From assembly GCA_021904315.1 (NCBI GenBank), contig CM038917.1, forward strand, positions 4,200,041-4,264,040: a DNA stretch of 64,000 nt, read 5' to 3'. Below are positions 10,937 through 60,335 of the stretch, one piece after another (position 1 is the stretch's first letter; each line of letters starts with the position of its first letter). The notes under the pieces were generated by a model. The model saw nothing but the letters and a program-made list of their open reading frames with translations. It ran no database searches and had not been told where the DNA came from. The position numbers and the translations under genes were made by a program. This DNA comes from Sphagnum magellanicum. Its lineage: Eukaryota > Streptophyta > Sphagnopsida > Sphagnales > Sphagnaceae.

Positions 10937-12379
10937 CTACAAGTTGGCATCAGCTCCTTCTTCTGCATATCCCCAGAAGTCATCATCATCATTATTTGCA
11001 TTAGAGCCGCCCTCCTTCTTGTCTCCAAAACCACCAAAACCCTCTGGACGTGGCCCAGTGAACCGTCTGCAAAACCCAATACAGTTAAGTCAGTGCAAGA
11101 GCAGCAATAGAGTCTAGCTCCCACATCACCAGCCTTTCTCTGCATAGGGGTAATTGGAACACTTTTTCAGCCCTATGTCAGCAACAATGGAGACTGTAGC
11201 CACAAAAAGTGGGAGGAACAAAACTCCATTACCCTTCAAATACTTGTACTATGCATCCAATCTTGGGTGACAAACAAGTGAGCTTGCATGCTTGACACTC
11301 ATGAAGTGACCAGATGCAAGATTGGGTACCATTTGATCCCACAATAACCAACCCTTATGAGGAAAAGGACAATAAAAGAGAAATATAATCTATCTGTCTT
11401 GTGACTTGTCTGGAAAAAGAAACACAACAGATTGCAGATTGTCTGGAGAAAGAAGCCACAATTGCAGCTAATGTGAAGCACTGCTGCCACAGAGTACAAA
11501 AGTACTGCTCAAATCACAAAGACTTAGAGATGCTTTCCATGACTCATCCCTGCACAAAAAAATTCCGCCAACAATTGAGTTCTGTGAACTAAAATTGAAT
11601 AACAAAGCAGATTTTCCAAATCTCTATTCAGAAAAGACACATACCGCAAAAGTCCACACAAAGATGAGGTTGATGATATTGGACAAAGGCCGAGGAACTT
11701 TGCCTCGAAATAAACACGAACAAACCGCTTCCACAGAGAAAGGCTTCTTTCTTTCTCTCTGTTTTCTTTCAAGAAGTTTGTGACTAGATTCAACATTACA
11801 AGAGCTTAATTCTACGACTGAACTTGCGTCATGACAACGTTCGAGCAATCGTCCACAACAGAACGAACTCTCCACAACCGGATATGCCAATCCCGGACAC
11901 GAACACGATAACAGTAAGGAAGTCGTGATAATAGATGAAAACCTGGGTTTCTTGCGGCGCGCATTCTGCTGTTTGCGCTTCACGATGTCCTGCGGCGTTT
12001 CGAAGAAACGACGGCGGCGGCACTCGGGGATGACGCCAGCCATCATGACGGCCTTGCGGAAGCGGCGCACAACGGAATCCGCGGGTTCGTCCTCTCCCAC
12101 GAACACCTGCGCATTGTAGGAGCCTCGGAACCACATCAGGTTGGCATATTGTAGGGAGGGATCCGCGACCGTCATCTCCAGCGAGATCGGCATACTACTA
12201 CCTGGAAACGCTTGCTGTTGCGCTACCAGTGGCAGCTTCACACTGCTCGACCCGAAGCTGCTACTGGTAATGGAATTACTACCACAAACACCACCACTGC
12301 TACTACTACTACTACTCTCAACGGAACAACGGGGCGCTACACTGACTACAGACGCAACGGGACAAAGCGCGGACGCCAT
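10937..12379 (-). CDS. rpS21c: chloroplast 30S ribosomal protein bS21c precursor
   Basis: Two exons (12379-11943 and 11066-10937) joined by a GT-AG intron of 876 bases give 188 aa. Residues 1 to about 80 are rich in Ser and Val and poor in acidic residues (MASALCPVASVVSVAP, then a serine run). That suits a plastid transit peptide. The S21 domain spans about residues 88-145: YNAQVFVGEDEPADSVVRR, FRKAVMMAGVIPECRRR, FFETPQDIVKRKQQ, then the basic ARRKKPRR. The second exon adds a Gly-rich and acidic tail (FGGFG, NNDDDDFWGYAEEG). bS21 binds the small subunit near the mRNA exit of the plastid ribosome. I chose the ATG at 12379 for its G at +4 and MAS start. The frame stays open upstream, and an ATG at 12580 would add 67 residues. 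Confidence 0.9.
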
Positions 12380-12579
12380 GCTGAAGACTCCTTCCTTTTG
12401 CTCTAGGTCGCAGTGTCCCTTTCCCTCTCCCGTGGTTTTGTTCGCGTGCGCTTGGTGCTGCTCGGAGCAATGGCGACCTTGTGCATCCGCAAAGCAGATA
12501 GGGTGCCTTTCTGCTGCAACGAAGGAAGAGGAGGAGGATGAAGGATGAAGGACGGAGACGGATGAAAATCGGACGTTCA

Positions 12580-14121
12580 TCGTTAATTTAGCGGAACTAC
12601 ATAATTTGGACGTATGAATGCTTCTATGTGTTAAAACCAGCGTTTTTTTTTTTTTTCGTGGCGAATTTTCGCACTGTGGCGACAAAAAAAATTCAGAAAA
12701 TTTGGGAATTTTCGTTTTTTGAGTGTAAATTCGGAGTTTAAAAAAAAAATCACCAAACTTTCGAAACCACAAATTTGAAGAATAATGAATTAATGAATTA
12801 AAAAAACCATTACTTATACGAAAATATCAGTAGATAATGGAAAATTTTATAATTTCAAAAATAAAAAACGAATTCATTTTTTGAAAAAAATGAAAAAGAT
12901 TTGTTTTTGTCAAAGTGGAAACTGACCCTAGGGTACGGTAGGCTAAACCCATAAAATTTTGGCTGGAACTTGACTCAATGTATCAATGACATTGGGCATA
13001 CTATGTGTGCATATGATGGATGGATGGACGTGTTCCATAGAAGTGCATGCAATGTACATCTAGATGAGAAGTTCTAAATTCCTAGGGAAATTTTTAATTT
13101 CAACTTTCACCTGATGAGACGAGCTCCTTATTTGTTATTTGTTTTTTGGATGTGACTATGTCATAACCCTCCCCAAACTCTAAGCCCTTGGGCTTCACTT
13201 TTGAGAAACACCATTGAAAAAGTCCTCAATGAGACAATGTGCATGTTTGTCAATTCATAATTTTTGAACCAACAAAGAAAAAGATATTCAATTTAAAATA
13301 ATTTTCATCATCATAAAGGTGTTATCTACCCATGGCATAATCGCATGAAGATGTTTGGGATTAAGAATTGAAAGATAACCTAATTCATTTTATTGTCAAT
13401 ACAATGGGTCAATATGTTATTCATCAATGACCTCATGAACAAACTTCATATGGTTTATTTCATGTGTCATTTTTCCAGTTCTGACGAATCAAAACATGGT
13501 GTTTTTTTTCCACATGGTGTATACTTTAAGCTACACTGAGTATTTTTTGTTCGAAAATACACAATTTTTTTTGCAATCCCAGATGAAATTTAGGCAAATA
13601 TTTAGTATCCACAAAATTCAACACTAGCTATCACCAAACATAAGAAGGTCCTTGCAAGGGAGCGAAGAAAACCAATGCTCTTTATTTGAAGCCAATCTCA
13701 AAACAGGCAAATTTCCAACTAACTACATTTGAAAAAACCATAATCATCCTCTGCTCTTCTTGTAGATGCAAAGGAGACATTAGATTTGATCTTCATGCGT
13801 GATTCAAATAGTACATCATTTTATCACCTTAAAACACTCAAAAGCTTGAATTTATATGGAAAAACAAAAGCCTTCAAAATAGAACCGAAAAAACTATAAT
13901 TGATGAGACGTAAATATAATGGACCCCCAATTTTTCTCTCAGCTTGCAGCAACAGATTTGGTGAATGTAAAAAGAATGGCAAATGAACAAATTGCAATAG
14001 TTGGAATTAACTGAAATAATTTCTAGTGTAAAAGAAATCTCAAGAAACTCAGGATTTAGGGTTTAGGGTATCATGATTATACTATAAAACAATTGTGTGT
14101 CAATTGGGTTGGCTTCCTCTC
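12580..14121. other. intergenic AT-rich region
   Basis: Contains A/T homopolymer runs near 12,640-12,760 and a dispersed repeat at about 12,890-12,950 that recurs near 29,520. No gene is supported. Confidence 0.45.
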
Positions 14122-34642: not shown

Positions 34643-34930
34643 GTTTATAACCAGATTTGGTTATCAATTTCTGGTTTAGAGTTTAGGGTTTAGGGTTCAT
34701 GGCCCAGGTTTAAACCCTAAACCCGTTTATAACCAGATTTGGTTATCAATTTCCGGTTTAGGGTTTAGGGTTCATGGCCCAGGTTTAAACCCTAAACCCG
34801 TTTATAACCAGATTTGGTTATCAATTTCTGGTTTAGGGTTTAGGATTTTAGGGTTTAGGGTTCATGGCCCAGGTTTAAACCCTAAACCCCTTTATAACCA
34901 GATTTGATTATCAATTTCCGGTTTTGATAA
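34643..34930 (+). repeat. tandem repeat with telomere-like palindromes
   Basis: About 3.5 head-to-tail units starting at 34,643, 34,725, 34,800 and 34,890 (82, 75, 90 and a partial unit). Each unit reads TTTATAACCAGATTTGG, then TTATCAATTTC, then GGTTTAGGGTTTAGGG, a short spacer with ATGGCCCAGG, then TTTAAACCCTAAACCC. The last two arms are complementary, so each unit can form a hairpin of telomere-like sequence. Confidence 0.85.
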
Positions 34931-36297: not shown

Positions 36298-38533
36298 ATG
36301 GATTGCATAGGATATGGAGCACATGATGAGAAAGGGCTGTTGGTGCCCATCAAATTCAAGCGCAGGTTGGGAACTTTTTGGGCTCTCTCTCTCTCTCTCT
36401 TGATGCTTCTTCTTGTTTGGTTCAGCTAGGCTGCTGTGTCAAAGATTTTCCATCTCTGTGAAGAGGCTCTCATCATGACTGAAGACTCAAGTCTCTTCTG
36501 TCTGTTGCAACAGGATTCCAGGGCCAGATGATGTGACTTTCCGGATTACCCACTGTGGGGTGTGCCATTCAGATCTCCACCATGTGTTCAACGAAAGGGG
36601 CACAGCCAAGTACCCTATTGTCCCTGGGTATGTATGTTCCAAACTCTCCATTCCCTTCCACTAAATTTTGCAATTGTTTGGTTTTTGGAATTTATCCATC
36701 TCAAGTTTTGCTCATCTTGCTGCATGTTCCTCCCATGTGCATCCATGCTGCCTGAGTTTTTCTGAGACTGCAAAAGTGATCCTGTGATTGATGATTGTTG
36801 GTATCAGGTTGTTGGCATATATTATCCTGGGTGTGATGATGATGACCAGCTTATGGACATTAAACCAAGATACTCATGTCAAATCTGTGTTGCAATTTTA
36901 GGCATGAAGTTGTAGGCGTTGTCACAGCAGTCGGTGACAATGTCAAGAACTTTGAAGTAGGTGATCGTGTAGGCGTTGGGCCTATATGCTACTCTTGCCA
37001 AGACTGTGAATACTGCAACAAGAACATGGAAAACTATTGTGTCAAGCACCTGATTCTCACATATAATGACATTGACTTTGATGGTTCCATCACCAAAGGA
37101 GGCTACTCTAATGCCATGGTCACTCATCAAAGGTGAGAGGGATTCTGTGTCCTCTCTAATTTGCTCCTGTTGCACTTGTTATTCTCTTGAAATTTTCCAT
37201 CTGAAACTATTTTGGAAAGCAGCTTCAGTGCATGTGCCTAAATAGATTGTCATTTGGATAGGACTAAACCTGGAACTTGCACTTCTGCTGGATTTAATCA
37301 CAAAAATTCCATCCTTGTGGAAATGATTTCTGTTCAGGTATTTGGTAAAAATTCCAGATGCCTTGGCATCAGAATTTGTAGCTCCACTTTTGTGTGCGGG
37401 AATCACAGTGTACAGCCCATTGATGCGCTACAATATGAATCAATCGGGTAAGAGCTTGGGTGTAATCGGGTTAGGTGGGCTCGGCCACCTGGCAGTTAAG
37501 TTTGGCAAAGCATTTGGTCTCCATGTCACTGTTCTCAGCACATCACCAGCTAAGCAGGAAGAGGCTCTTACCGTTCTTGGAGCTGATGCCTTCATAGTTA
37601 GCAAAGATGAAGCCGCCATGAAGGTTTTTGAACTTTCTACTGCTCTCAAATTTGTTGTGCTTAAAGTAAGATGTATAATTGTATTTGTGGGTTCAAGGTT
37701 AGGTTCGATTTAGGATGCAGAGTTCAAAATTGGGTAATGAGTTCTTGGTTTCATCTAGCTGCTATCAAACTGATAGTCTAATTTTGATCTTACGGCTTTG
37801 GCTTTGTTTTCATCAGTCAAAGAACAAACACATCTACAATTGCAGACTGAACAAAATGTTGTGCATCGTTGGGAATAGTGGTGGAATCTTTCAATAAACT
37901 CTATGAAAGGTTGGATCTGTTATATGATCAGTTCTCATTATGAGTGGACTTCTGGAATTGACTTAAGGAATGGTTTGGAATGTTGAAGGCTGCTGCAGGG
38001 AGCCTAGATTTTATTGTGGATACAGCATCTGGGATTCATCCACTTGATCCATACTTATCACTTTTGAAGTATGAGGGCATAATTGCAGCTGTTGCTGCAC
38101 CCCCCGAGATGAAGTTCACACCCGAACTATTGTTCATGGGTAGGTGAAGAGGTCAACATACCCACAAATCCATGATTTCCATGTCAGAGATTATCACTTT
38201 CAAAATGTTGACATATCAAATTTGTTGGAGCCTTTGGTACGCAACCCTTAAAACACTGGAACTAACTAAAGAGGTATAAGCAAACATGGATGTCTTCTTA
38301 CCCATTTGATAGTTGGATCTGTAGGATTGAAGACAATTATCGGAAGTGTGATTGGCGGGATGAAGGAGGTGCAAGAGATGCTTGATTTTTGTGGTGAAAT
38401 GGGTGTGACACCCATAATTGAGACTATTCCAATTGATTATGTGAATGAAGCATACAAGCGGCTTCAAAACAATGATGTGCGCTATCGATTTGTCATTGAC
38501 ATTGAAAATTCTCTCAAAGAGTCTGTGAACTAG
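36298..38533 (+). CDS. CAD-like: cinnamyl alcohol dehydrogenase-like zinc enzyme
   Basis: Six exons (36298-36365, 36514-36627, 36902-37132, 37338-37623, 37989-38139, 38313-38533) with GT-AG introns give 356 aa, the usual length of the CAD family of medium-chain dehydrogenases. Catalytic zinc ligands are C37 ([11 protein letters not shown]), H62-E63 (PGHEVVG) and C157 ([11 protein letters not shown]). Structural zinc cysteines are C93, C96, C99 and C107. The cofactor fold shows GLGGLG at 182-187, followed by LSTSP, whose serines suit NADPH. The C-terminus ([11 protein letters not shown]) is family-typical. Reduction of an aromatic or aliphatic aldehyde with NADPH is expected. Positions that line the substrate pocket in lignin-class CAD differ here (Ser for Thr after CHxD-type Cys-His, His for Gln, no Trp before TYND), so it may be a CAD-like member with another substrate. 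A TAG is in frame 69 bases before the chosen ATG; TTGTAG there could end a 5' untranslated intron. Confidence 0.93.
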
Positions 38534-45805: not shown

Positions 45806-46514
45806 TGGACTATAAGGAGCTTAGGTCTCCCCCATCAAATTTTGTGGGTGAAGGGTGGGTTGGGTTTGGTGTTTTTATCTTGGAGTTTTAAAACAATTAA
45901 GAGTTTTGAAACATGGCAAGTAGCCAAACCATGCATATGTACAACATGCTCTTGTGGGAAACACAAATGTGCGGAGACAACCTTGACAACAAAATACCAG
46001 AGCCTCAACATTAAAAAAACAAATAAGAAATTTTAAAGACCTATCATCATAAAAGAAAGGGGAAATATTTTCTCCATTGTATAAATCCCAACTATTGAGC
46101 ATACAGAGATTGGTGTGTATTGCAAAGGTTTTACAAAGACGGACAAAATTTGCTTCAAGTATTACTTCTCCATCAAAACCCTTGCAGACATCTACATTAT
46201 GTCGTCTTATTTATATGGACCACAAAATATCAATTTCACTATTGATTTCCTCTCTAGGGGTCGATAGGTTGTTTCACAGGAGTGGCAATTCATACCTAAC
46301 AACAAAAACCCCACATAAACCAACTCAATAACTTCACATGATTCCTCTCAAAGATTGGATAGAGATTTAGGGGAGTATCAATCAAGGTAATATATTCTAT
46401 TCTCTAATATCCGCTTCCCAAAAGCCCCGAACTCCCACAAATGCAACAAGTACTCTCTCCTTAGGATGGAACGGATTGCGCACTCATCATCTCAAAATCC
46501 CCAAAGTTATCACA

Positions 46515-46985
46515 CATGAGCTGCCACACAACCACTCCAGAAATCCTTGACATAATCATCATTTCCCTTGTGTTGGTCCCTATAAAAAAACATACTAGAC
46601 CTCTAGACCTTTTCCTGACTCTTAACATAGCAAAAATTCAATTGTCAAAGTTTTTCCGATCTAGCAGTCCTAATGAAGTTTTATTCTTAACAAATTACCA
46701 CTCCCAAAATCCAAATCTTACACACACTTTTAGTCTTCAAAAAGTCTAGGCACTTAATTTTTCTTCATCACCAAAAAAAAACACTCGGAGCTCCTCCTCA
46801 ACCTGCATCAAATATATTCCTCTTAACCTCATCCCTTGGCTCCCCAAAAATCTTCCTGCCAATCTCCTTGTAAAACTGTGATTCACAAAGCTCATGAAAA
46901 GTTTTCATTAAGCAACTAGGATTGCGTTCCATCATAGAAACTAACATCAAGCTCCTTTCATCATAACCTGCAAAACAACAAAACA
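46515..46985 (-). repeat. inverted repeat arm 1 with unrecognised exon
   Basis: About 470 bases match, in opposite orientation, the sequence at 50,503-50,990 (CCACACAACCACTCC, TTGTGTTGGTCC, CTCTAGACCTTTTC, CATCACC and other blocks). On the minus strand it contains a plausible terminal exon (46,967-46,798) after a TTTTGCAG acceptor. The exon encodes YDERSLMLVSMMERN, then FYKEIGRKIFGEPRDEV and NIFDAG, then a stop. I do not recognise the protein. Confidence 0.55.
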
Positions 46986-47404
46986 CACCAAAAATAGAAA
47001 CACATTAAAAGCAAATTTTTTGACATTGTTGAATCACCGCATCATTAACAGTTTAACCACCAGGCTTAATTAGGGTTTGTAACCTTCATCCACATAAAAC
47101 ATCTGACATTTTTTTTAGGTTATAGACCTTCTGAATACATTGTTAAGTACGTCCCTAAACAATCCAATGCAGATTAGATCACAAAAGATGGGATTTCCCT
47201 TCTTGGTTGTGTTCCAATTGGGGCACAATACAACAAACCTACACATACTGAATATTCACGTTCATATAATGAAAAGCCCATATACCCCAAAGGCTAAAAA
47301 GAAGGCCAATTTGGACCCATATTCTTGCACTTTTAAAGGAAGAATAACATATGATTATTCATACTTGAGCTGGCCTGCAAACCCTAGATCTGGGTTTAAG
47401 CCAC

Positions 47405-53914: not shown

Positions 53915-54765
53915 TGATGGCTTGTGTTTTATGGTATTTTTGTTGTTCTAACAAGCAGTGCTCGTCAAAACTTTCCTTTGTCTTCTTTGAAAACTTCAAG
54001 TTACCAACAGAGACAAAAGTTGTTGACCTAGATTGGTCTTGATAACATACAAATTTTTCAATCAAGAAAAACTTCTGCTATGTGTTTAGTTGCTCCATCA
54101 CTTTAAACTTTTCCAACTTTAGAACTTCAATGGGCAGGATCTGGAAGGAAATATTTATTGGTCGAAAGGCATCATTAAATTAGAGAGCTCTACATTGAAA
54201 CTTTTTTTGCATCTTTCAAATTTTTGATTTATTATTATTGCAAATTGTTTTATGATATGGCCTGCCAAAAAAGTTTGATTGAGAGTTATGTTTAGGGCTT
54301 GCAGCTTACATATGCCCATCACTATAATAGTTGTAAGGGGGAATTTTGGAGTTGGAAGATGCAAAATAGAAAGGCAATGTGTGAGGAGTGTTATAAGAAA
54401 AAGGTCAATCAAAAACAAGATCACATGATGGAACTTGACCTACGATGGGAGCACAAATGCACAATTTGCATGGAGCCCAATTCAAAAATTGCCCTACCCG
54501 GTTGTAACCATGTCATGTGTCTCAAGTGTTGTCATGAACGGTGTGTTCTTCCTCATCCTGGTAGAGTGTAAAGTAATAACGAAGTCTTCTTTGTTGCATG
54601 CTTATGATGACTCCCAACTTTGGTGGTAAATTGGTCCTAGGTCCTGTTGGAAAAATATATGCATATGTAGCTAATGATATATTCTTTAAATTGGTTGCAT
54701 TTGCAAGCATACAAGGTCACAATCATGTCCATTTTGCCATGATAGTTTGAAGTAGATGAACTCAC
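53915..54765 (+). pseudogene. duplicated AIRP2-like segment, disabled
   Basis: This plus-strand block aligns along its length with the minus-strand RING gene at 1.4-2.3 kb. It covers the end of exon 3, all of intron 3, exon 4 (about 54,303-54,540), intron 4 and the start of exon 5. Introns are retained, so this is a DNA duplication, not a retrocopy. It still spells CTICMEPNSKIALPGCNH and VMCLKC. It is dead: exon 4 has TAA, TAG, TAA and TAG in frame plus a one-base insertion, and the intron 4 acceptor CAG has become CAA. Homology stops in exon 5 after GAACTCAC, where TPR sequence begins at once. Confidence 0.85.
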
Positions 54766-56125
54766 ATGTTGGATGACTATCAAGGAGCCTCAAAGGACCT
54801 TCACAAGGTTGATGTCCTTCAACCAAACAATGCATCCCTTTGAGGACTCATGGAAATGTCAAATACATGTTAAATGACTATCAAAGATCTTTAGAAGACC
54901 TTGACAAGGCTAATGTTCTTGAACCAAACAATGCATCCACTTTGAGTTGTCATGCACGTGTCAAATACATGTTAGATGACTATCAAGGAGCCTTAGAGGA
55001 CTTTGACAAGGCTAATGTTCTTGGACCAAATAATGCATCAACTTTGAGGACTCATGGAAATGACAAAAGGATGGTGAAAGATTATCAAGGAACCTTAGAA
55101 AACCTTGACAAGGCTTATGTTCTTGAAACAAACAATGCATTCGCTTTGATGATTCGTGTAGATGTCAAAGACATGTTGGATGACTATCAAAGAGCCTTGG
55201 AGGACTTTGACAAGGCTAATGTTCTTCAACCAAACAATGCATCCATTTTAAGGATTCATGGATGTGTCACATACATGTTGGATGACTATCAAGGAGCCTT
55301 AGAGGACCTTAACAAGGATGATCTTCTTGAACCAAACAATGCATTCACTTGGAGCACTCATGGAAGAATCAAATACATGTTGGATGACATCAAGGAGCCT
55401 TGAGGACCCTAATAAGGTTGATGTTCTTGAACCAAACAATGCATTCACTTTGATGATTCATGGAATAGTCAAATATATGTTGGATGATTATCAAGGAGCC
55501 TTGGAGGATGTTGACAAGGTTGATGTTCTTGAACCAAACAATCCATGCACTTTGAACATTCGTGGATATGTCAAATACATGTTGGATGACTATCAAGGAA
55601 CTTTAGAAGATTTTGACAAGGCTAATGTTTTTGAACGAAACAATGCATTGATTTTCAAGAGTCGTGGACATTTCAAGAGGATGGTGAAAGATTATCAAAG
55701 AGCCTTAGAGGACCTTGACAGGGCTCATGTTCTTGAACCAAACAATGCATTCACTCTGACGATTAATGGATATGTCAAAGATATGTTGGATGACTATCAA
55801 GGAGCCTTGGAGGACCTTGACAAGGTTTGTGTTCTTGAACCAAATAGTGCTACCTTTTTGAAGATTCATGGACATTTTAAAAGGATGTTGAAACATTATC
55901 AAGGAACCTTAAAAAACCTTAACAAGGCTAATGTTCTCGAACCAAACAATGTATTCATTTTAACAATTTATGCCCACACAAATTGGAGTTTAAACAAATA
56001 TCAAGTGGCATTGGAGACCATGGGTAAACTTCATCATCTTGAACCAAATGATCATTTGATATTACACGATAAAAAATGGTTGAAATTGATGTTAAATGAA
56101 TACCAACCCATATTAAAATTATTGT
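54766..56125 (+). pseudogene. TPR array, N-terminal part of a TPR-kinase pseudogene
   Basis: Thirteen tandem 34-aa units begin at 54766, 54867, 54969 and then every 102 bases, except unit 7. The consensus is MLDDYQGALEDLDKANVLEP followed by NNAFTLRTHG-type residues. This fits a tetratricopeptide repeat (helix A, Tyr at the Y11 position, Pro near 32), a protein-interaction scaffold. Unit 1 has lost one base and unit 7 two bases, so the frame is broken twice, though the losses sum to three. Other units are clean. A CACTA element interrupts the gene at 56,129. Beyond the element the frame would enter a kinase domain. Confidence 0.75.
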
Positions 56126-56699
56126 CATCACTACTACAAAAGTGGGGTGCAATTTACTAGCCTAAATCATTATGGGACCTTAAAAGTGAAATAAGTTCAT
56201 TGCCTTTTATTGATTTCACCCTAGTGAAAGTTATTTCACTATAATATCACTACATAAACATCATATTTCATTACTAGTTCAAATAATTCACTTTTATAAT
56301 TTATTGTAGTAAATATGTTTATTTATATATTTTTAATTATTTTATATATGCTATTTTATGATATACCTTATATTATTTTTAATTATTTTAACTTATATCT
56401 TATGTTATTATACGCTATTATAAATTATTGTACCTTAAACTATTATACGTTATTTTACCTTAAAGTATTTTAACTAGCTTAGTATAAGCTTTTAAGTTAT
56501 TTTAAATTAATAATAGTTTAAAATAATCTAAAATAAAATATAATGACCTACGGTAAATTAACTTAAAATAGAAAATAATTACCTATGAAAAATAATTTAA
56601 AATACCCTATAATATAATAACTACCAATAGCCCATGATATTATAACATATAATATATAACAATAATTTATAATACAATAATCACCAATAATCGTAATGT

Positions 56700-57240
56700 A
56701 ACATATAATAACCAACAATAAATTATAATGCAATAACCACTAATAGACATTAATAACCATCAATATCCACCAATAACCATTAATAGAATAGCCACTAATA
56801 ACCATTAATAGAATAACCATCAATAATCATTAATAAAATAATAACCAATAACCATAATGGAATACCCATTAATAGCCATTAATAGAATGACAACCAATAG
56901 CCACCAATAGAATAACTATTAATAGTCATTAATAGAATACCCACCAATAGCCATTAATAAAATAACTATTAATAGTCATTAATAAAATAATCACTAATAA
57001 CCATTAACAGAATAACAACTAATAGCCACTGATAATCATTAATAGAATAATCACCGATAGTCATTAATAGAATAACCATTAATAATCATTAATAGAATAC
57101 CCATTAATAACCATTAATAGAATAGCCACTAATAACCATTAATAAAATAGCCACCAATAAAATAACCATTAACAGCCATCAATAAAATAGGTACCAATAA
57201 CCATTAATAACCACTAATATCTTTAATAAAAGAACAAGTA
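56700..57240 (+). repeat. AATAACCATTAATAG minisatellite inside the CACTA element
   Basis: Dozens of imperfect units alternate AATAACCA[T/C]TAATAG with AATAGCCATTAATAG-type variants. A more diverged A-rich continuation (AAATAACCTAAAATAGCC type) runs to about 57,650. Confidence 0.85.
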
Positions 57241-58002
57241 ATAACCATATATTAAAATTGCTTAAAATTGCCAAAAAAAATCTAGGGTGAAATAATTTAT
57301 AATAAACAAAAGTAATTTAAGGTGAAATAACCTATAATAACCTAGAATTGCTAATAATAACATAAGGTGAAATAACGTTCAATAGCCAAAAATAACCAGT
57401 AATAGCTTCACATAATTGAAAATAACCTAATATGAAATAACTTAAAATAGATATAAATAGCCTAAATTGAAATAATTTACAATAGCCAAAAAATTAGAAT
57501 AGCCAAAAATAATTGAAGGTGAAATAAACTAAAATTGCCAAAAGTAACTTAAAATAACCAAAAGTAACCTAGGGTGAAATAGCAAAAACTAACCAAAAGT
57601 AATTAAGAATAACCATAAATAGCCGTAAATAATGTAGGGTGAAATAATTTAAATTAATGAAAAATAGTCATATAATAATTGAAAATAATTTAACATAAGT
57701 AATATTATTATATTAGCAAAAAAATTATCCAATTATTATTTTTTATTTTTTTCAAAAGAATGGTCATTGAAATATTATTAAATAATGATATTCAACCTTT
57801 TTTTTTGTTCAAATGATTTTAAATTTTCAAAAAAAATTTAATTTAATTATGTACAATATTGAATTTTTAAAAAAATAAACTTGAATCATTTCATTTGAAC
57901 AAAATCTCAATAAGATATGAATTTTCAAAGTTTATGTTTTAGTAATGTTTTAAATGAAATATTTGATAAATGGAATGTAATGTAATATATTATCACAACA
58001 AG

Positions 58003-58085
58003 TGGGGTGGCCTGATGGTAAAGATGTTTGCTTCTAATCCGAAGGTCAAGGGATCAAATTTCATGAGTGATGTTATGGGTGATTA
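58003..58085 (+). mobile_element. possible tRNA-derived SINE head
   Basis: TGGGGTGGCCTGATGGTAAA recalls the GTGGCCTAGTGG start (box A) of plant SINEs. About 30 bases later GTCAAGGGATCAAATTTC resembles a decayed box B. The 3' end is not defined. Confidence 0.4.
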
Positions 58086-58500
58086 ACAATGGTATGTTGA
58101 CTGAATATTCTCTTATTTGGTTTCCTAAAATAGGTGTCTAGGTTGATTATGTGGCTTATGTACATAGTTTAGGTCTTTAACCTAGCCTAGGTAGTGACGT
58201 GTGTCAATAAAGCATAGGCTGAAAATCATAAAATCATCAATTATATTATATATTAAATAATTAAATTTTAATTGATTTCCATGCTAGCTAATTAATTAAC
58301 TAACAATTGAATGGTTTGATAAATTTGTATTTCACTTGAAAATAACCTTGTTTCACTAAGTAGTAGTGAAACAATTCATTGTCCGTTACAACTGGTCCTC
58401 ATTCACTAGGGGGTTAAACAATTTCACCAAATAAAAATGTCCAAATTCATTCAAAATCTAGTGAAACCCATAATGAACTAAGACTCATTTTGTGGTAGTG

Positions 58501-60335
58501 CATTCAATTTAATTATTCAATTTTTTACATACAATGAATTAGATTTTGGAACAAGTTTGGGGAAAGGAACCTTTGGTGAGATGTATCAAAGTTGTTAGAA
58601 AAACACCAAGATTGCAATTAAAGTTTTAGAAAAAAATGGCTCCCACAATGAAGGTGCAAAAAAATCTTTCATATTTGAAGTGTGCACTGTGGGATCAATT
58701 CAACATATTAATTTGGTTCATCTTTTGGTCTATTGTATCAAAGGCTTACAACATATGTTAGTGTATGAATACATTTCAAATTCATCTCTTAACAAATGGC
58801 TCTATGAGGATAACCTTTTAGATTGGGATCGATGAGTGTGCATCATTATAAGGGTTGCTCAAGGATTGGCACACTTGCATAAATGTAATTCCATAATTGT
58901 CCATCTTGACATCAAACCACAAAATATCCTTTTGGATAAAGAGTACACCCCAAAATTGGCCGATTTTGGGTTGGCAAAAATTTTAGATGGCAAGGATGAA
59001 ATTGTGGTATGTGCCCCACCATTCTTTTTTTATTGATTATATGCATGCACACTATAACTCGGTGCAATTGTGAACCTTGCAAATTTGAACGTTCTTGTGG
59101 GGCACAACTTGCTAATTTCATATTTGCATTATTATAGGTCATGGAACAAATATGATTAACATTCACAATTTAAAATGAATGTTTGAAAAACACTTAATGT
59201 AATAATTCATGAAATTACATTTTATATTACAAATTTTCTTTTTATGTGTGCATAAGTAATGACATAAGGCTTGAACTTTTGTGATTGAAAAAAATTCAAA
59301 AATAGATTATGGGTTCCTATTGGTATTGGACTGGATCTTGGGTGTGGGTTTTATGAACTTTAACATGTATATTCAATGCATATGACACCCATTGAAATTA
59401 TTGATTTGTTTGGAAAACTCAATTTCAAATGTAGTTAACTTCAATTTCTACATCGAGATCAAGCAGATATATGGCACCAAAAATTCTTTCAAAGCAAGTA
59501 TCGACAAAGAGTGATGTGTATAGCTTTGGAGTCTTGTTGATTCAACTTATGAATGGATCACCATTCATTTTAAATGGAAATGAAATTCACATTTGCAAAT
59601 TTATCCAATGGGCATGACATGTTCATGTGGAAGAAAATGAATTTCAACAAATTTTCAATGTTGTAATTCAATCATTGGGTTTGACCACAATGAAGCCAAA
59701 TTAATTTGGCAAATTTCCCTTTAGTGCATTAAGGTAATCTTTGTGCCAAATCTTTTATGTGTATCATTCAATTTGTGGTCAAGCAAATTTGAAAAACCCA
59801 AATCATGGATTTGATGTAATACTTGAGATAATTTGAAATAAATTAAACTAGATTGTCCGCTAAATGTAAAACTTCCTAAGAAGGTTTACACATGTAAATG
59901 GTACATTCAATTTTAGTTGGAATTATTTTAGACCATTTACATGATTGATATGTATAGTCAAAGAATATCTTATTTTCAAAGTGAATAAAATTATGTTGTT
60001 GAATAAAGATATAAGTTGGTTTCAACATTCGTTTTTGAAGGATATATATTCAAATTGTGTCATTGCAAATTGAGACACATGAAGATGTAGTCCCATTTAT
60101 TCAAGCATTTTGCCATGGTTTGATTATAATGTAGAACTATTACATAATAAACATCTAACTTTTATGACATTTGTTTCTTATAGAAAGACCCAAATCAAAG
60201 ACGAGGAATGTAAGAAGTTTTGCAAATTTTTAAAGGATTGAACAAAAAAAAAAGCATATATTGCCACATCAATCCAAGAATATTTCAACATATTATTGAG
60301 AAGATTTGGCTCCACTCTCAAAAGGATGTGATTTG
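58501..60335 (+). pseudogene. serine/threonine kinase domain, C-terminal part of the TPR-kinase pseudogene
   Basis: Three exon-like parts are seen. Part 1 (to about 59,008) has FTYNELDFGTSLGKGTFGEM (glycine-rich loop), IAIKVL (ATP lysine), [28 protein letters not shown] (catalytic loop) and [10 protein letters not shown], then a donor GTATGT. Part 2 (about 59,458-59,735) has SRRYMAPKILSKQVSTKSDV and YSFGVL. Part 3 (from 60,181) has KDPNQRRGM. The HLDIKPQN form is typical of plant receptor-like kinases of the LRK10L/SD type. TAG follows the loop, TGA interrupts WDR-VCII, and more stops follow, so it is disabled. Confidence 0.8.

Follow-up and report, generated by a model that had tools for sequence, protein, structure and literature searches.

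A tetratricopeptide repeat array and a receptor-like kinase separated by a CACTA element in Sphagnum magellanicum: the probable relic of a single gene

The stretch of DNA considered here, referred to below as the window, comprises 64,000 nucleotides of the Sphagnum magellanicum genome (GenBank assembly GCA_021904315.1, contig CM038917.1, positions 4,200,041 to 4,264,040 of the forward strand). Towards its right end lie an array of tetratricopeptide repeat (TPR) units, a CACTA-type DNA transposon and the exons of a receptor-like kinase (RLK), preceded by part of a gene for a RING E3 ligase. We consider it probable, by a modest margin of belief, that the array and the kinase are the relic of one gene for a cytoplasmic TPR-kinase; both the one-protein status, which is claimed from this single decayed locus, and every function assigned to the protein are inferred.

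The repeat array, the transposon and the kinase exons

The TPR array (54764..56128, + strand) was recognized by Tandem Repeats Finder (TRF), in a unit table, by Pfam matches to TPR_1, TPR_2 and TPR_9 above the cut-offs (TPR_2, 3.1e-11; TPR_1, 2.3e-10) and through the similarity of its sequence to solved structures, among which an engineered TPR protein was the best match and consensus TPR structures were also present. The TPR identity proposed in an earlier note on this DNA, made from the sequence alone, is thus upheld. TAL-effector repeats, numerous among the solved-structure matches, were taken as matches of period and rejected as a relationship. The array, cut at the repeat anchor, consists of 13 units and a further 31 bp that begin a 14th. 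A length of 102 bp is shared by ten of the 13, while units 1, 7 (55383-55482) and 12 measure 101, 100 and 105 bp; a unit corresponds to 34 codons, or 35 in unit 12. The reading frame is broken twice, unit 1 being short by 1 bp and unit 7 by 2 bp, and these losses leave the array covered by two open reading frames (ORFs) in different frames. The earlier note had described a 13-unit frame that reaches the CAT target site of the transposon; the frame of units 8-13 does reach the first CAT, but the array as a whole is not one frame. The units had also been called near-identical, which is refuted by a comparison of the nine undamaged 34-codon units (2-6 and 8-11, with units 1, 7, 12 and 13 excluded): identity among them is 72-85% at the DNA level and 47-73% at the protein level. 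Units 12-13 are diverged from the remaining array. Over 54764-55961, the period score is highest at 306 bp, equal to three units (1420), followed by 204 bp (1371) and 102 bp (1227), which hints at the duplication of multi-unit blocks.

Do these units retain signs of past coding function? Not one stop codon occurs in the nine compared units; when the same changes were relocated at random, a mean of 5.1 stops arose, and stop-free sets were obtained in 2 of 2000 runs. By this measure, the TPR array evolved as open coding sequence. The differences among units are unevenly distributed along the TPR register: at positions 2, 5, 6, 9, 12 and 13, which usually face the ligand, nonsynonymous differences (pN) amount to 0.415 and synonymous differences (pS) to 0.165, compared with a pN of 0.175 and a pS of 0.229 at the other positions (p 0.003 by permutation over positions; p 0.006 without position 6; eight units). 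Conservation at the structural positions was not out of the ordinary (p 0.49). Variation focused in this way fits the diversification of a binding surface, as in a recognition module; TPRs generally vary at these positions, the data come from one pseudogene, and some of the change may postdate its death.

The array is followed by the CACTA-type element (56129..58500, assigned to neither strand), which is 2,372 bp long with 23% GC and is flanked by a CAT target-site duplication whose left and right copies, likewise unstranded, occupy 56126..56128 and 58501..58503. Its ends read CACTACTACAAAA and CACTACCACAAAA, each adjoined by CAT, and the terminal inverted repeats CACTACtACAAAA and CACTACcACAAAA agree at 12 of 13 bases; the insertion of 2,372 bp at a CAT target site, as first noted, is thereby confirmed. 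The motif GTGAAA/TTTCAC, which was selected once the sequence had been inspected and is found in the interior of the element as well, is present nine times within the outermost 350 bp of the two ends taken together, compared with 0.45 expected, an enrichment reached by none of 2000 simple (single-base) shuffles. Tandem repeats of ~25 bp occur inside the element. Since no stop-to-stop ORF of at least 80 amino acids was found within it, the element is at most a non-autonomous member of the CACTA group, and a blastn search did not find a second copy in the 64-kb window. It is an ordinary non-autonomous CACTA (En/Spm) element. A segment within it (57995-58060) resembles, by eye, the A- and B-box sequences of tRNA; a tRNA-derived insert was not supported, as neither ARAGORN nor Rfam detected a tRNA.

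The kinase half begins immediately after the right CAT and is distributed over three exons on the + strand, with GT/AG borders that we read as phase 0. Exon 1 (58504..59006; Pfam Pkinase, E 1.1e-29) carries the FTYNEL lead-in, the glycine loop, the IAIK lysine, the HLDIKPQN catalytic loop and DFG; exon 2 (59435..59733; Pfam Pkinase, E 5e-8) carries the activation segment, with APK in place of the usual APE, and SDVYSFGV; and exon 3 (60184..60335, 3' limit uncertain), read by eye, carries KDPNQRRGM-EVLQIFKGL at the end of the C-lobe. Among the best 60 of 521 sequence matches to solved structures, SYMRK, BRI1, BAK1, a lectin receptor kinase and IRAK4 rank at the top, which marks the domain as an RLK/Pelle-type kinase and, together with the Pfam matches, bears out the receptor-like kinase domain first noticed downstream of the element. 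We take the HLD catalytic loop to mark the kinase as non-RD, and it may resemble the SD-2b/LRK10L-like kinases.

In-frame stops interrupt every kinase exon. In exon 1, they are found at 58596 (TAG), 35 bases beyond the first base of the glycine-loop motif (58561), and at 58833 (TGA); in exon 2, a stop at 59615 is followed by a frameshift, inferred to lie somewhere from about 59650 to 59690, and by a stop at 59722 in the subsequent frame, a TAA at 59702 lying past the frameshift and hence being uncounted; and in exon 3, a stop is present at 60211. With five in-frame stops and one inferred frameshift, the kinase, as read here, is dead, and the locus apart from the transposon is, on the evidence of its lesions, a multiply disabled, 5'-truncated pseudogene. 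These lesions also bear on whether a functional gene might splice the CACTA element out as an intron, which the position of the transposon between two coding halves would permit, transposons being known in general to be spliced. Such splicing would leave the two TPR frame breaks, the five kinase stops and the frameshift in place; unless these are assembly errors, the idea is refuted, and we regard it as extremely improbable. To say that a CACTA transposon split a gene here is consequently sound as to the insertion and the joining of the frames and misleading otherwise, the transposon being one of many lesions in a truncated pseudogene.

The join between array and kinase and the lost 5' end

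When the element and one CAT are omitted, the frame of units 8-13 reads ...NEYQPILKLLS-FNLIIQFFTYNELDFGTSLGKGTFGE and continues without a stop up to the glycine loop of the kinase, which confirms the empty-site frame reported earlier. The array and the kinase are on the same strand, and the FTYNEL lead-in begins approximately where a 14th TPR unit would end. The divergence of units 12-13 was counted in favor of a fusion, since terminal repeats often diverge. Fusion is the simplest reading of the open join, although the evidence for it is moderate.

At the opposite end of the array, positions 53926..54765 (+ strand) hold an internal fragment (0.84 kb) of a RING E3 ligase gene, with introns retained and exons decayed, that ends within the last coding exon. 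Its sister copy lies outside the fusion, about 52 kb away and in the opposite orientation, at about 3400-1250 (- strand): a gene with several introns that looks intact by eye, with a complete RING and C-terminal exon in the same reading (about 3.4-1.25 kb). The fragment matches window positions 2294-1428 (- strand) with 82.6% identity over 873 blastn columns (724 of 832 ungapped columns identical), and the Pfam model RING_XB3-XBAT31 scores 21.8 of 50 bits on the decayed copy, below the cut-off. We label the fragment AIRP2/XB3-type and take the gene to be of the AIRP2 type. At 54764, the last RING exon meets the TPR array in the middle of a unit, with an overlap of ~2 bp (AC). We read this breakpoint as an illegitimate junction at which both partners were cut, which implies that the true 5' end had been lost from the TPR gene and that the region is a mosaic. 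An in-frame RING-TPR chimera was not supported, as the RING frame at the junction runs into stops and differs from that of the TPR units. Simple scans likewise lent no support to capture by a Helitron or by a terminal-inverted-repeat element: no Helitron-type 3' end was found in 50.5-64 kb, and the 25 longest of 87 inverted-repeat pairs were weak (70-87% complementary), mostly AT-rich and in no case clearly framing the region. An NCBIfam scan yielded nothing but models that scored far short of their cut-offs.

This junction raises the question of whether RING, TPR and kinase pieces are all unrelated fragments joined by rearrangement and connected in frame by chance. The RING-TPR breakpoint, cut in mid-exon and mid-unit with its ~2-bp overlap, is itself an event of this type, and the RLK-like FTYNEL lead-in could follow a lost upstream exon. 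Several further observations weigh against a single ancestral protein. Because the region is a mosaic of gene fragments at its other end, the likelihood increases that the kinase is one more of them. On the + strand of neighboring DNA that is presumably non-coding (52.0-53.9 and 60.4-64.0 kb), 22% of 20-codon stretches are open, and since one of three frames must also match, the probability of an open join by chance is estimated at about 0.07, a value that a mosaic could accommodate; the strong evidence for one ancestral protein claimed in the earlier note was therefore overstated, and moderate is the appropriate grade. Neither the 31 bp to the left of the junction nor the 57 bp to its right show similarity to a TPR unit (846 and 333 of 1000 shuffles, respectively, score equally), which leaves frame, translation and spacing as the grounds for a 14th unit. 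Among the nine units, the overall pN/pS is 0.98, compared with 0.76 and 0.84 when the two remaining frames are read, and being no lower than these, it gives no sign of overall protein conservation; nor were synonymous changes in excess, as the observed fraction was reached in 1770 of 2000 simulations. Finally, no intact relative was seen: the TPR consensus gave no pattern match in viral contigs, a non-plant collection, and 43 pattern-matching stretches in prokaryotic genome contigs, none of which was confirmed, a result uninformative on plants.

Set against the mosaic are the shared strand, the open frame and a spacing in which the end of unit 14 would meet the kinase lead-in, as well as the scans that showed neither a Helitron-type end nor inverted repeats clearly framing the region. 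On balance, we regard a mosaic of unrelated fragments as possible and clearly less probable than a single gene. A second alternative is that two adjacent genes are present, namely, a TPR-only gene ending near 56128 and a receptor kinase gene whose 5' exons, encoding the ectodomain and membrane span, have been lost. A membrane segment normally precedes the kinase in RLKs, a position of which FTYNEL is typical; by eye, an AG acceptor could also lie in 58504-58545. However, the empty site contains neither a stop nor a spacer between array and kinase, and tblastn searches of the window revealed no other TPR piece and, for the kinase, a chance-level match of 17 residues at 37056 (E 0.84). Two neighboring genes are thus an improbable explanation.

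Proposed history of a TPR-kinase and other features of the window

If the locus does descend from a single TPR-kinase gene, the ancestral protein would have carried at least 13-14 N-terminal TPR units followed directly by an RLK-like (Pelle-type, non-RD) kinase, and no transmembrane segment would have separated the two. Binding of a peptide or protein would have been the task of the TPR superhelix, and signaling that of the kinase. Through a rearrangement, part of a RING-ligase gene would have taken the place of the 5' end; point lesions would have broken both the TPR and the kinase halves; and a non-autonomous CACTA element would have inserted after the last TPR helix and ahead of the kinase. 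These steps are given without an implied order or cause of gene death. The ligand-facing variation was counted towards reading the array as a recognition module. A further proposal, which we put forward as speculative and rather unlikely, is that the relic represents a family of cytoplasmic receptors not yet described in plants, with a long TPR superhelix that diversifies repeat by repeat for recognition and a fused non-RD Pelle-type kinase for the output, as a TPR counterpart of leucine-rich repeat (LRR) immune receptors.

Elsewhere in the window, three features were recorded. An ORF at 11627-12826 (- strand) has a ribosomal protein S21 domain (PF01165, E 1.3e-13) after a long N-terminal part, for which plastid targeting is a guess. 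Tandem 75/90-bp repeats around TTTAGGG telomere-like units, with 96-98% matches, occupy 34681-34924. An inverted repeat pair of about 530 bp (46492-47000 and 51004-50472; 69% identical) flanks about 3.5 kb.

Comparison with known systems

The element between the two halves resembles non-autonomous CACTA (En/Spm) elements in its CACTA ends, 3-bp duplication and subterminal repeats, has no transposase ORF and is otherwise ordinary. For the TPR-kinase itself, the brassinosteroid-signaling kinases (BSK, RLCK-XII) are similar in that a plant cytoplasmic Pelle-type kinase and TPR motifs occur in one protein. BSK3 is described with an N-terminal kinase and three C-terminal TPR motifs (PMC6336344), while the opposite order of kinase and TPR is stated for OsBSKs other than OsBSK5 (PMC9720961), in conflict with the former source. 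Unlike the kinase-then-TPR order of the former source, 13-14 TPR units precede the kinase at the present locus. A functional parallel is provided by wheat resistance proteins of the kinase fusion and tandem kinase types (Sr43, Pm4, Lr9 and WTK), which join a kinase to another domain, as is proposed here, and some of which act in pathogen recognition; however, no TPR partner is among the fusions listed, and the locus here encodes no intact protein. TIR-NB-TPR proteins, as outlined in PMC12512272, place a plant TPR module on an immune signaling domain, which differs from the present case both in the signaling domain and in the order.

Among the matches listed from the open-access literature (titles and the beginnings of abstracts), none was found to describe an RLK-type kinase preceded by a long TPR array. 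Predicted proteins derived from conifer cDNA may combine such TPR units with a kinase. What the locus means depends on its relatives. If no intact relatives exist, it is a decayed mosaic of an ordinary kind into which an ordinary transposon has inserted, and it then warns that a frame left open across an empty site supports a fusion less strongly than its appearance suggests. If intact relatives do exist, a long TPR array variable at its ligand-facing positions and joined to a non-RD receptor-type kinase would represent a new layout of intracellular plant sensors.

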